Below are positions 34,364 to 37,824 of a DNA stretch of 41,619 bases, piece after piece. The DNA lies in the NCBI GenBank assembly GCA_026932145.1, contig JAIXKT010000007.1, positions 113,717 through 155,335 on the forward strand. Direction: 5' to 3'. The notes beneath the pieces are model-generated. The model saw only the letters and a program-made list of their open reading frames with translations, ran no database searches and had not been told where the DNA came from. Position 1 is the stretch's first letter. Every line of letters starts with the position of its first letter. The stretch comes from Bacteroidia bacterium (GTDB lineage Bacteria; Bacteroidota; Bacteroidia; J057; JAIXKT01). Both the position numbers and the translations under genes were made by a program.

Positions 34364-34387
34364 CACTGTGTTTTGTAAAGCATAATG
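34364..34387. promoter_or_regulatory. weak ModE-box-like palindrome over the modE-like start
   Basis: CACTGT (34364-34369) and ATAATG (34382-34387) span 24 nt, the same span as the site at 34750, and overlap the ATG at 34385. Four of six half-site bases match in inverted order. This could be autoregulation, but the match is weak. Confidence 0.25.
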
Positions 34388-34735
34388 AATGAAGAAAAGA
34401 AAACCTATTCTATAAGAGTCCGAATTTGGGTTGATGAAGAAAGCGGCCCCTTTTTGGGCATAGGAAAGGTTATTCTGCTTGAAAAAATCAAAGAAACGGG
34501 TTCCATAACAAATGCGGCAAAGGCAATAAAAATGGCATACCGGCAGGCTTGGCAATTAGTAGAAGATATGAATAAACGTTCAAAATTACCATTAGTAGAA
34601 AAAAAATTGGGAGGAAAAGGCGGTGGCGGCGCTTTACTTACACCTGAAGGAGAAAAAGCAATACATGAATTCTATAAAATTGAAAAAGAAATAAAGCAAT
34701 TTGTACTCACAAAATCACGTGAATTAGAATTCTGA
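34385..34735 (+). CDS. ModE-type winged-helix regulator, DNA-binding domain only
   Basis: A 116-residue transcription factor matching the N-terminal DNA-binding half of ModE: GIGKVILLEKIKETGSITNAAKAIKMAYRQAWQLVEDMN (winged helix-turn-helix), PLVEKKLGGKGGGGALLTPEGEKAI (wing) and a C-terminal helix. The molybdate-binding Mop domains of E. coli ModE are absent, so metal sensing must come from a partner, from altered chemistry, or not at all. The gene lies 140 nt upstream of a TonB-dependent receptor gene in the same direction, with two ModE-box-like palindromes between them. Regulation of that receptor, and perhaps of itself, is inferred. Confidence 0.9.
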   Translation: MNEEKKTYSIRVRIWVDEESGPFLGIGKVILLEKIKETGSITNAAKAIKMAYRQAWQLVEDMNKRSKLPLVEKKLGGKGGGGALLTPEGEKAIHEFYKIEKEIKQFVLTKSRELEF

Positions 34736-34749
34736 TTTTTTTTAAAATG

Positions 34750-34773
34750 CACTATTCCCTAAAAAACATATCG
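34750..34773. promoter_or_regulatory. ModE-box-like palindrome 1
   Basis: CACTAT (34750-34755) and ATATCG (34768-34773) face each other over 24 nt, like the CGnTAT...ATAnCG layout recalled for proteobacterial ModE boxes (4 of 6 symmetric). It sits 103 nt before the receptor ATG and is a diverged copy of the site at 34840. Confidence 0.45.
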
Positions 34774-34839
34774 AAAATATGAAAGCAAATCACAGCATTA
34801 ATATCAGAAATCAGATAGTTACAACTTTTTTATACACTG

Positions 34840-34864
34840 CGTTATTCCTAAAAAAAACATACCG
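34840..34864. promoter_or_regulatory. ModE-box-like palindrome 2
   Basis: CGTTAT (34840-34845) and ATACCG (34859-34864) are symmetric at 5 of 6 positions over 25 nt and resemble the E. coli modA operator half-sites CGTTAT/ATAACG. It ends 11 nt before the receptor ATG, where a bound repressor would block transcription. Confidence 0.5.
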
Positions 34865-34875
34865 AATTAAAAAAT

Positions 34876-36888
34876 ATGAAAAAACAAATCTTATTGGTAG
34901 CGATCATGATTCCAATCCTTGTGTTATCACAAAATCAGGATACACTTAAAAATGACTATCTTGATACCTTAGGAACAAAGACATTTCAGCTTGGCGAAGT
35001 TGTAATATCTGCCAATTCAAAAGACGAAATAGCAGGGAGAATAACCCAGACAACTATGGAAGCCCAAAATAGATACGAGGTTTCGCGATCATTGAATATG
35101 CTGCCGGGCATCAGTCTAACATCTTTTGGCCAACGTAATGAATCCATGATTTCAGTTAGAGGATTTGATTTACGGGCAGTTCCGGTTTATATGGACGGCA
35201 TCCCTGTCTATGTTCCTTATGACGGCTATGTAGATCTGGCAAGATTTACCACCTTTGATTTATCGGTAATTGACGTTTCAAAAGGCTTCTCTTCGATGCT
35301 CTATGGGCCTAACTCTTTGGGTGGAACGATCAATTTAATCTCCAGAAAACCTACCCAAAAATTGGAGTATGACGGATCTTTGGGAATGATAAATACAAAT
35401 GGCTATAGAGGAAATCTGAACATCGGTTCTAATATCGGAAAGTTTTATCTACAAGGAGGATATTCTTATTTACACAGAGACTCATACAGAATGTCGGGTG
35501 ATTTTAAATCCAATATACATGAAAACGGTGGTGAACGGGATAATTCATACCGCACAGACCAAAAAATAAACTTCAAAATAGGTTGGACACCGAATGAAAA
35601 ACAGGAATACGTTCTCGGATACATTAATCAGCAAGGGAAAAAAGGAACTCCTCTTTATGCCGGTAACGATACTCTAAACTCGCTTTATACCAAACCACGC
35701 TTTTGGCAATGGCCATATTGGAATAAAGAAACATACTTTTTCTTGTCAAATACTAAACTAAATGAGAAAAATTACCTAAAAAGCCGGATTTATTATGATA
35801 TTTTCAAAAATTCAATCAATAGTTTTGATGACTCAACCTACACTACCCAGAATAAGCCCTACGCCTTTCAAAGTTGGTACAACGATTTTACCTATGGAGG
35901 AAGTATAGAATACGGAACAAATATTATCCCCAAAAATGAGTTAAAGTTTTCTGCGCATTACAAAGAAGATATTCATAGAGAAAATAACGTAGGCGAACCT
36001 GTAAGACATTTTGAGGATAACACAATAAACTTTGCCCTTGAAGATGCCTATAAAATCAATGATAAAATTGTGCTAATTCCCGGAATAAGTTATAGTGCCA
36101 GAAAGAATATTACAGCACAAAATTATGATAGCAAAAATCGAACTATCTCTGATTTTGCCAAAGCAGGAACCAGCCCAGCCTTGAATGAGCAATTGGGAAT
36201 ATTCTACTACGTTAAAGAAAATCATAAAATAAGTGCCACAGCATCGCGAAAAACCCGCTTCGCTACAATCAAAGACAGATATTCTTACCGCATGGGAACT
36301 GCAATTCCTAATCCAGACCTGAAACCCGAAACATCAGATAATTATGATTTAACCTATACCGGTAAATTCCTAAAAAAACTTACGCTTCAAACTTCCCTCT
36401 TTTACAGCCATATTACGGATGCTATTTTGAGCGTAAATAATGTTCAACCGGGTAAATCACAAATGCAAAATGCAGGAACAGCAGAATTTATGGGCGTTGA
36501 GGCTTCTGTAAAATATGATATTCTGAAAAACCTCTTAATAAGTACCAATTACTCATATATCGAAAGACATAACCTAACAAACCCAACAGTTCTTTTTACA
36601 GATGTTCCTTATACAAAGGTATTTACATACTTACAATACAAACCAATCAAGCAAATCAGAATAATATTAAGTTCTGAATACAACTCACTGCGTTACAGCA
36701 CAAGTTATGGCACAAAAGCACCACAATATACCGTTTTCAACGCAGTTGTATCCGGGCAAGTATGGAAATACCTGAGCATCGAAGCAGGGCTAAATAACAT
36801 TCTTGACAAAAACTATATGCTTACCGAAGGCTATCCCGAAGAAGGAAGAAACTTTTTTGTAACCCTAAGATTTTTTAACCACAACTAA
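34876..36888 (+). CDS. TonB-dependent receptor, possibly for molybdenum/tungsten compounds
   Basis: A 670-residue outer-membrane transporter. Signal peptide MKKQILLVAIMIPILVLS/Q, a TonB-box-like stretch LGEVVISA (about 37-44), plug domain (RSLNMLPGISLTSFGQRNESMISVRGFDLRAVPVYMDGIPVYVPYDG... YGPNSLGGTINLISRKP) and a 22-strand-type barrel ending in FFVTLRFFNHN. There is no N-terminal carboxypeptidase-like domain and no SusD partner, so it resembles small-ligand receptors (siderophores, cobalamin, metals), not glycan receptors. Its location behind a ModE-type regulator and ahead of a SUOX-fold lipoprotein suggests molybdate, tungstate or a molybdopterin as ligand; this is inference. Confidence 0.9.
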   Translation: MKKQILLVAIMIPILVLSQNQDTLKNDYLDTLGTKTFQLGEVVISANSKDEIAGRITQTTMEAQNRYEVSRSLNMLPGISLTSFGQRNESMISVRGFDLRAVPVYMDGIPVYVPYDGYVDLARFTTFDLSVIDVSKGFSSMLYGPNSLGGTINLISRKPTQKLEYDGSLGMINTNGYRGNLNIGSNIGKFYLQGGYSYLHRDSYRMSGDFKSNIHENGGERDNSYRTDQKINFKIGWTPNEKQEYVLGYINQQGKKGTPLYAGNDTLNSLYTKPRFWQWPYWNKETYFFLSNTKLNEKNYLKSRIYYDIFKNSINSFDDSTYTTQNKPYAFQSWYNDFTYGGSIEYGTNIIPKNELKFSAHYKEDIHRENNVGEPVRHFEDNTINFALEDAYKINDKIVLIPGISYSARKNITAQNYDSKNRTISDFAKAGTSPALNEQLGIFYYVKENHKISATASRKTRFATIKDRYSYRMGTAIPNPDLKPETSDNYDLTYTGKFLKKLTLQTSLFYSHITDAILSVNNVQPGKSQMQNAGTAEFMGVEASVKYDILKNLLISTNYSYIERHNLTNPTVLFTDVPYTKVFTYLQYKPIKQIRIILSSEYNSLRYSTSYGTKAPQYTVFNAVVSGQVWKYLSIEAGLNNILDKNYMLTEGYPEEGRNFFVTLRFFNHN

Positions 36889-36930
36889 AACAGCATTGAA
36901 TCTTTAACACCAAAATAAATATTAAGTATC

Positions 36931-37554
36931 ATGAAAAAAACATCATTCACAATTTCAGCTCTGATAATTGTGCTCCTTTTTTACGCTTGCAGCAGAAACG
37001 TGAACCCAACAAAGTCAAGAACTACCGAAGGTCAAACAACAACAATGGGTGAAAAAAAACGAGGTAAGACAGATGCCTGTATGACACCAACTTCAGCTAA
37101 AGACAGCGCAAAATACATCAGTAAACAAGTAACTGTCAAAGGAGATGTAGAGCATCCTCTTATATTAACAGTAGATTCACTAAAAGCCATGAACGTAGCT
37201 ACCATTGAAAACTTCAACGTTATTTGCCAGAGTGGAGCAAATATGAAAGAAAACAAAACCTGCAAAGGAGTGCTTTTAAAAGAGATACTTGAAAAAGCAA
37301 AAATAGTGCAGCATAACCACAAAGACAGAAACTTTTACATCGTTGCCCGCGCTACCGATAACTATAAAGCAACATTTTCTTGGGCAGAAATATTTAATAA
37401 TCCAACAGGCGATAATGTGTACATCCTGTTTGAAGAAAATGGCCAACCCATTAAAGAACAGGGAGATATGATTTTGATTTGTAAAAATGACATAAAAACA
37501 GGCCCTCGCCATGTTTATTGGCTAAAAAATATTGAAGTAAAAAGAGTAAATTAG
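36931..37554 (+). CDS. SUOX-fold (molybdopterin-binding) lipoprotein
   Basis: A 207-residue lipoprotein: signal MKKTSFTISALIIVLLFYAC with candidate lipidated C20. From about residue 65 it resembles the sulfite-oxidase-type molybdopterin domain: VTVKGDVEHPLILTVDSLKAM, then NVICQSGANMKENKTCKGVLLKEILEKA, where C99 aligns with the molybdenum-ligand cysteine of the family. DNYKATFSWAEIF and the final GPRHVYWLKNIEVKRV complete the domain. No twin-arginine signal is present, so unlike typical exported molybdoenzymes it should be secreted unfolded by Sec and could meet a cofactor only outside the cytoplasm. It lies 42 nt after the receptor gene and is presumably cotranscribed. Cofactor capture or a redox role is possible; neither is proven. 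Confidence 0.78.
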   Translation: MKKTSFTISALIIVLLFYACSRNVNPTKSRTTEGQTTTMGEKKRGKTDACMTPTSAKDSAKYISKQVTVKGDVEHPLILTVDSLKAMNVATIENFNVICQSGANMKENKTCKGVLLKEILEKAKIVQHNHKDRNFYIVARATDNYKATFSWAEIFNNPTGDNVYILFEENGQPIKEQGDMILICKNDIKTGPRHVYWLKNIEVKRVN

Positions 37555-37746: not shown

Positions 37747-37817
37747 TGCCCGGTCGTATAAAGGCAGTACAGCTGATTTTGGTTCAGCGTGTGGGGGTTC
37801 GAATCCTCCCTGGGCAA
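37747..37817 (+). tRNA. tRNA-Gln (anticodon TTG)
   Basis: Acceptor TGCCCGG (37747-37753) pairs with CTGGGCA (37810-37816), discriminator A at 37817. D stem GTAT/GTAC, anticodon stem GCTGA/TCAGC with loop TTTTGGT (anticodon TTG), T arm GGGGG-TTCGAAT-CCTCC. CCA is not encoded. The prs start codon lies only 7 nt after its 3' end. Confidence 0.94.
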
Positions 37818-37824
37818 CGAGAGT

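Follow-up and report, generated by a model that had tools for sequence, protein, structure and literature searches.

A ModE-linked TonB receptor and SUOX-fold lipoprotein as a candidate molybdenum acquisition cassette in Bacteroidota and green sulfur bacteria

Molybdate is generally held to cross the outer membrane via porins, and no description of TonB-dependent molybdenum uptake was found in the literature searched. The window analysed here, a stretch of 41,619 nucleotides from a Bacteroidia bacterium, raises the question of whether an active route also exists: a ModE-type regulator, a TonB-dependent receptor and a lipoprotein with the sulfite oxidase (SUOX) fold stand side by side in it. 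Our comparative analysis makes it probable that the three genes form a molybdenum acquisition cassette, in which the receptor would import, the lipoprotein would hand over the cargo and ModE would control expression.

The cassette and its two candidate operators lie on one strand of the window as follows.

34385 to 34735, + strand: HTH-only ModE-type regulator, 116 aa (TIGR00637; orthologs precede the receptor in relatives)
34750 to 34773, + strand: candidate operator, copy 1, CACTATTCCCTAAAAAACATATCG (ModE-box geometry, 12-base spacer, 9/10 fixed positions)
34840 to 34864, + strand: candidate operator, copy 2, CGTTATTCCTAAAAAAAACATACCG (10/10 fixed positions, 13-base spacer, directly 5' of the receptor start)
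34876 to 36888, + strand: TonB-dependent outer-membrane receptor, 670 aa (Plug and beta-barrel domains, fold, orthologs)
36931 to 37554, + strand: SUOX-fold lipoprotein, 207 aa (PF00174, fold, lipobox Cys20, Cys99, conservation)

According to the open reading frame list, 140 bases separate ModE from the receptor and 42 bases the receptor from the lipoprotein; the cassette is flanked on one side by an oppositely oriented T9SS PorG-like gene and on the other by a tRNA-Gln. The initial annotation had named these three families, their order and their place, which the open reading frames and domain profiles confirmed, and had noted that no ModABC transporter or molybdoenzyme is nearby, which is true of the window; a molybdoenzyme, moaA and moeA are located on another contig of the same genome. 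Chance adjacency of the three genes was discarded in view of the recurrence of the same order across many genera.

The receptor contains the Pfam Plug (PF07715, 2.2e-18) and beta-barrel (PF00593, 1.8e-28) domains, and its orthologs are 61-74% identical. Among solved sequences it is closest to the catecholate receptor Cir (E 1e-19), and among solved folds its predicted structure is closest to OprC and Cir. All 20 matches to NCBIfam siderophore, heme and B12 families fell under their cut-offs (best TIGR01785, 135.6 vs 316.85 bits), with the heme and siderophore families ranking first; grouping with a characterised siderophore or cobalamin clade, which the initial annotation had named as counting against its proposal, thus gains no support from these scores, although they do not firmly dismiss it. 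The plug-barrel fold is shared with the copper receptor OprC and with Cir, but at about 14-17% structural-alignment identity, and the window receptor differs from both in its ModE-box control and molybdenum gene neighbours.

The lipoprotein matched PF00174 (Oxidored_molyb) over the cut-off (E 7.3e-8), and its predicted fold matched SoxC, SorA, sulfite oxidase and PruR (VIA Z 13.7 to 13.0); searching the PDB by sequence, with single-sequence and profile queries of the lipoprotein, gave no credible match. Its signal, MKKTSFTISALIIVLLFYAC, read directly at the N-terminus, combines a hydrophobic stretch with lipobox Cys20, indicating Sec export, and includes no twin arginine; the mature protein probably faces the periplasm. 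MsrP-type enzymes are exported by Tat with their cofactor inserted, and a lipobox in place of a twin-arginine motif makes it unlikely that the lipoprotein leaves the cytoplasm carrying Moco. Cys99 aligned with the Mo-ligand Cys of MsrP in RMRC, in an alignment that is weak overall, and likely forms a binding pocket together with the conserved Arg133, Arg193 and His194. This cysteine is kept in 23/23 loci with the orthologous receptor vs 1/9 with only the other receptor described below, counts that overstate the number of independent events because the loci are related.

The fold and the position of the Mo-ligand Cys are shared with the molybdoenzymes MsrP, SorA and SoxC, but the lipoprotein has neither a Tat signal nor the dimer domain, and its family is kept in Moco-less genomes. 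PruR, a periplasmic pterin-binding protein, resembles the window protein in being a single small secreted SUOX domain (VIA Z 13.0 to 7kos); in PruR a Trp replaces the Mo-ligand Cys, and it works with DcpA/DTB regulators and binds free pterins (PMC13259868). The window protein, in contrast, has Cys99, carries a lipobox and is partnered by a receptor, and no DcpA/DTB-type regulator adjoins it, its neighbours being ModE and the receptor on one side and the tRNA and prs on the other.

The regulator matched NCBIfam TIGR00637 over residues 25-109 (E 1.9e-24; 85.6 bits, under the curated cut-off of 98.5). The protein ends after the HTH, with no Mop/TOBE part in a profile search, and no Mop domain (TIGR00638) match was found anywhere in the window's genome. 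HTH-only ModE proteins are known in Desulfovibrio (PMC545781). The ModE orthologs that precede the receptor in related loci mostly show 46-72% identity, and the ModE of green sulfur bacteria is full length with Mop domains. Box geometry, half-sites, molybdate-transport targets and probably the regulator's HTH domain are shared with the ModE regulon of the E. coli/Geobacter type, from which the cassette differs in that its putative targets include an outer-membrane receptor and a SUOX-fold protein, and in that the window regulator is without molybdate-binding domains. A second family of HTH-only ModE paralogs was also observed within Moco gene clusters of Flavobacterium (L138:8408-8746, L139:102-431).

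The lipoprotein was detected in 45/395 genomes of the phylum, but within the window's order none of 21 further genomes has it (1/22 including the window's own); this scattered distribution suggests horizontal transfer. Across the 47 named lipoprotein loci taken for neighbourhood comparison, the order ModE, receptor, lipoprotein recurred in Bacteroidota/Ignavibacteria MAGs (L031, L034, L036, L037, L039, L042), in G080 (L081) and in many Flavobacterium, and the receptor-SUOX pair was also found in green sulfur bacteria, whose genomes were identified by the FMO protein (12/12). The Flavobacterium cassette occupies one fixed site with leuS-like and ftsX-like genes on either side. Its receptor position varies: some copies have the orthologous receptor, some a different receptor of 853 aa, some both, and L077 has neither. 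Most Flavobacterium copies sit at this locus with no molybdenum gene beside them, and thus represent few independent events.

Elsewhere, the neighbours of the cassette point to molybdenum. In green sulfur bacteria, the pair is embedded in runs of nifEN(B), receptor, SUOX, modA, full-length modE and moaA (L084, L085), or nifENB, receptor, SUOX, modA and modE in a genome without moaA/moaC (L126). One Flavobacterium (G223) carries on one strand ModE, the 853-aa receptor, an ortholog of the window's receptor (63% identity), a di-heme protein resembling MbnH, the SUOX-fold protein, ModA, Mop, ModB and ModC; another (G191) carries ModA, Mop, ModB, ModC and ModE, followed by the MbnH-like and SUOX-fold genes. 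Cassette copies also lie just downstream of moeA, mobA, moaE and a moaC/moaB fusion, with moeB among the neighbours (L037, L039), beside narGH (L035, L041) and beside modABC (L090), and the SUOX gene directly follows moaA in L095 and is adjoined by modBC in L087.

Two further features of these neighbourhoods were observed. In the ModABC-type cassettes, the SUOX-fold gene is immediately preceded by a gene for a di-heme protein of the MbnH family (L136:6950-8053, L137:1970-3073; behind the receptors in L137), a family with known partners in copper acquisition. In a green sulfur genus (g82), a FecCD permease, a Peripla_BP_2 protein, a CobW-type GTPase and an ABC ATPase occur beside a receptor and the SUOX gene (L087:512-6879, also L086 and L088) and possibly make up a metal-chelate ABC importer.

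The receptor promoters provide a second line of comparison. The published ModE consensus is ATCGNTATATA-N6-TATATANCGAT (PMC545781, PMC2700814), with the core CGNTAT-N12-ATANCG. Perfect copies of this core were found upstream of the receptor in 10/11 green sulfur loci, often twice, as well as upstream of modA in L084, L125 and L126, and a slightly extended pattern gave 40 sites genome-wide in the 12 green sulfur genomes vs 9 for the reversed control. Studholme and Pau reportedly described ModE boxes in green sulphur bacteria in 2003, and some of the boxes here may be listed there already. In Bacteroidia, a palindrome of the same geometry (CAGTATTCATTTTAAAACATACTG in Flavobacterium) precedes either receptor type in 29/34 regions vs 2/33 modE upstream regions, so that there is no signal upstream of modE itself, and it sits before the lipoprotein where the receptor is missing (L041, L077). 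The two same-geometry sites in the window, together with the consensus boxes at the green sulfur orthologs, are candidate ModE-box operators at the receptor promoter. The strict operator pattern matched three times in the whole window genome, two of the matches being the window copies, and had no match in G080 or G189. The third match (C23:3673) was set aside as probably due to chance, as it falls inside a heme-type binding-protein gene.

The initial annotation had proposed that the three genes belong together in a molybdenum set linked to ModE and had suggested looking for a conserved neighbourhood and ModE-box motifs; the search was positive for both, with the order recurring across genera and boxes or operators lying before the receptor. 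This comparative evidence gives good support to its central proposal of a molybdenum system at the outer membrane.

Whether the cargo is molybdenum or its pterin cofactor can be approached through the cofactor genes. In the class Bacteroidia, MoaA was present in 14/14 SUOX-positive genomes vs 50/84 SUOX-negative genomes (Fisher 0.0019). Yet the receptor-SUOX pair is retained in eight green sulfur genomes that have neither moaA nor moaC, and the seven of these tested contained no PF00384 molybdoenzyme. In some of these Moco-less genomes the pair lies beside nifENB or modA (L126, L127, L125), implying that the need served there is likely molybdenum for nitrogenase and not the pterin cofactor. 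This retention argues against import of molybdopterin and in favour of molybdenum itself, as molybdate or a chelate. Uptake of a pterin cofactor, which the initial annotation had also entertained, is accordingly weakened.

Such import of molybdopterin or Moco, with the SUOX-fold lipoprotein as receiver, would agree with the fold and its Mo-ligand Cys, with Sec rather than Tat export, so that the protein could encounter a cofactor only after leaving the cytoplasm, and with the binding of free pterins by PruR, which has the same fold (PMC13259868). It was nevertheless dropped as very unlikely, given that the Moco-less genomes keep the pair; moreover, Cys99 has been lost in copies that are still next to ModE, and MoaA in the window's genome makes salvage unnecessary. 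The PF00174 match and the aligned cysteine could also denote a periplasmic Moco enzyme of the MsrP/SorA type, regulated by ModE through happenstance and only incidentally beside a receptor. We judge this very unlikely indeed, considering the Sec lipoprotein signal, the retention of the family where moaA/moaC are missing, the orthologs devoid of the cysteine, a length too short for the sulfite-oxidase dimer domain and the frequent pairing with the receptor.

The identity of the metal and its form allow two other readings. Tungsten and molybdenum are indistinguishable by the methods used, and the same architecture could serve tungstate; yet the systems encoded nearby that use the metal are Mo nitrogenase, NarGH and ModABC, which leaves tungstate the least likely of the readings weighed here. 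A possible, although rather doubtful, explanation is that the receptor imports a catechol-type chelate (a molybdophore or a dual Fe/Mo siderophore), making the cassette a ModE-controlled siderophore system. The proximity of Cir among solved sequences, the sub-threshold heme and siderophore family scores and the FecCD/Peripla_BP_2 system near the SUOX protein in L086-L088 would be consistent with it, but no siderophore-biosynthesis gene was found in the neighbourhoods examined, the regulatory sites are of the ModE-box type, and the adjacent genes relate to molybdenum rather than to iron. This explanation overlaps with molybdenum acquisition if the chelated metal is molybdenum. Against molybdenum acquisition itself stand the absence of a molybdate-sensing part from the window ModE and of any Mop domain match in its genome, the sequence proximity of the receptor to siderophore and heme families, the lack of a further copy within the window's order, and a modest model confidence (pLDDT about 61).

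Gene set, gene order, co-occurrence and operators are direct observations, and from them we infer the direction of transport, the ligand, the binding pocket and the role of a permease, as well as occupancy of the operators by ModE and repression. The TonB-powered receptor would bring molybdenum across the outer membrane, either as molybdate or in a small chelate; the SUOX-fold lipoprotein would bind it in the periplasm and pass it on; and ModABC, where present, would move the metal inward. The HTH protein ModE would control the receptor-lipoprotein operon via the pair of operators in the gap that separates modE from the receptor. ModABC itself is linked to the cassette in Flavobacterium G223, where its genes and the receptor share a one-strand run, and in green sulfur bacteria by the ModE boxes, but it is an inner-membrane system, and no ModB (TIGR02141) match was found in the window's genome or in five cassette-bearing Flavobacterium genomes.

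In the window's genome, a TauE/SafE permease behind moaA-moeA may substitute for the ModABC step. Another contig (L113) has consecutive genes for a DMSO-reductase-type-II enzyme that bears a twin-arginine signal, for MoaA and MoeA, and for this permease; MoaC is encoded elsewhere in the genome. In L042 and L095 a TauE/SafE gene also adjoins the SUOX gene, and in L039 and L138 such genes lie within Moco clusters. Positions of such permease genes, including some in genomes without ModB, are the following.

L113, 15039-15890: TauE/SafE permease gene
L138, 7662-8405: TauE/SafE permease gene
L042, 3521-4270: TauE/SafE permease gene
L095, 9113-9862: TauE/SafE permease gene

These permeases are candidate inner-membrane molybdate carriers. 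Combined with the TonB receptor, a SUOX-fold molybdenum carrier and a ModE without a Mo-sensing domain, they might complete a ModABC-free envelope route for molybdenum in Bacteroidota, a scheme that we put forward tentatively.

If molybdenum acquisition by the cassette is true, active uptake of molybdenum across the outer membrane would take place in low-molybdenum freshwater bacteria, in green sulfur bacteria that fix N2 and in Bacteroidota that respire nitrate, which would help to explain molybdoenzyme-bearing Bacteroidota without ModABC, and the SUOX fold, an enzyme fold, would become a metal-handling fold. The cassette is present in a strain of Flavobacterium johnsoniae (L052), making direct testing possible.

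Two minor observations concern the assembly and annotation. A 5.4-kb contig assigned to the window's genome (L134, G000:C13:1-5421), which encodes a NorB-like protein along with a second ModE and another receptor, is 99.945% identical over its full length to G189:C27, and was probably mis-binned in one of the two genomes. Directly 3' of the cassette, the tRNA-Gln (TTG) at 37747-37818 is followed by prs; a GTG-start open reading frame at 37789 overlaps this tRNA, and the true start of the prs-like gene is therefore probably later than 37789.
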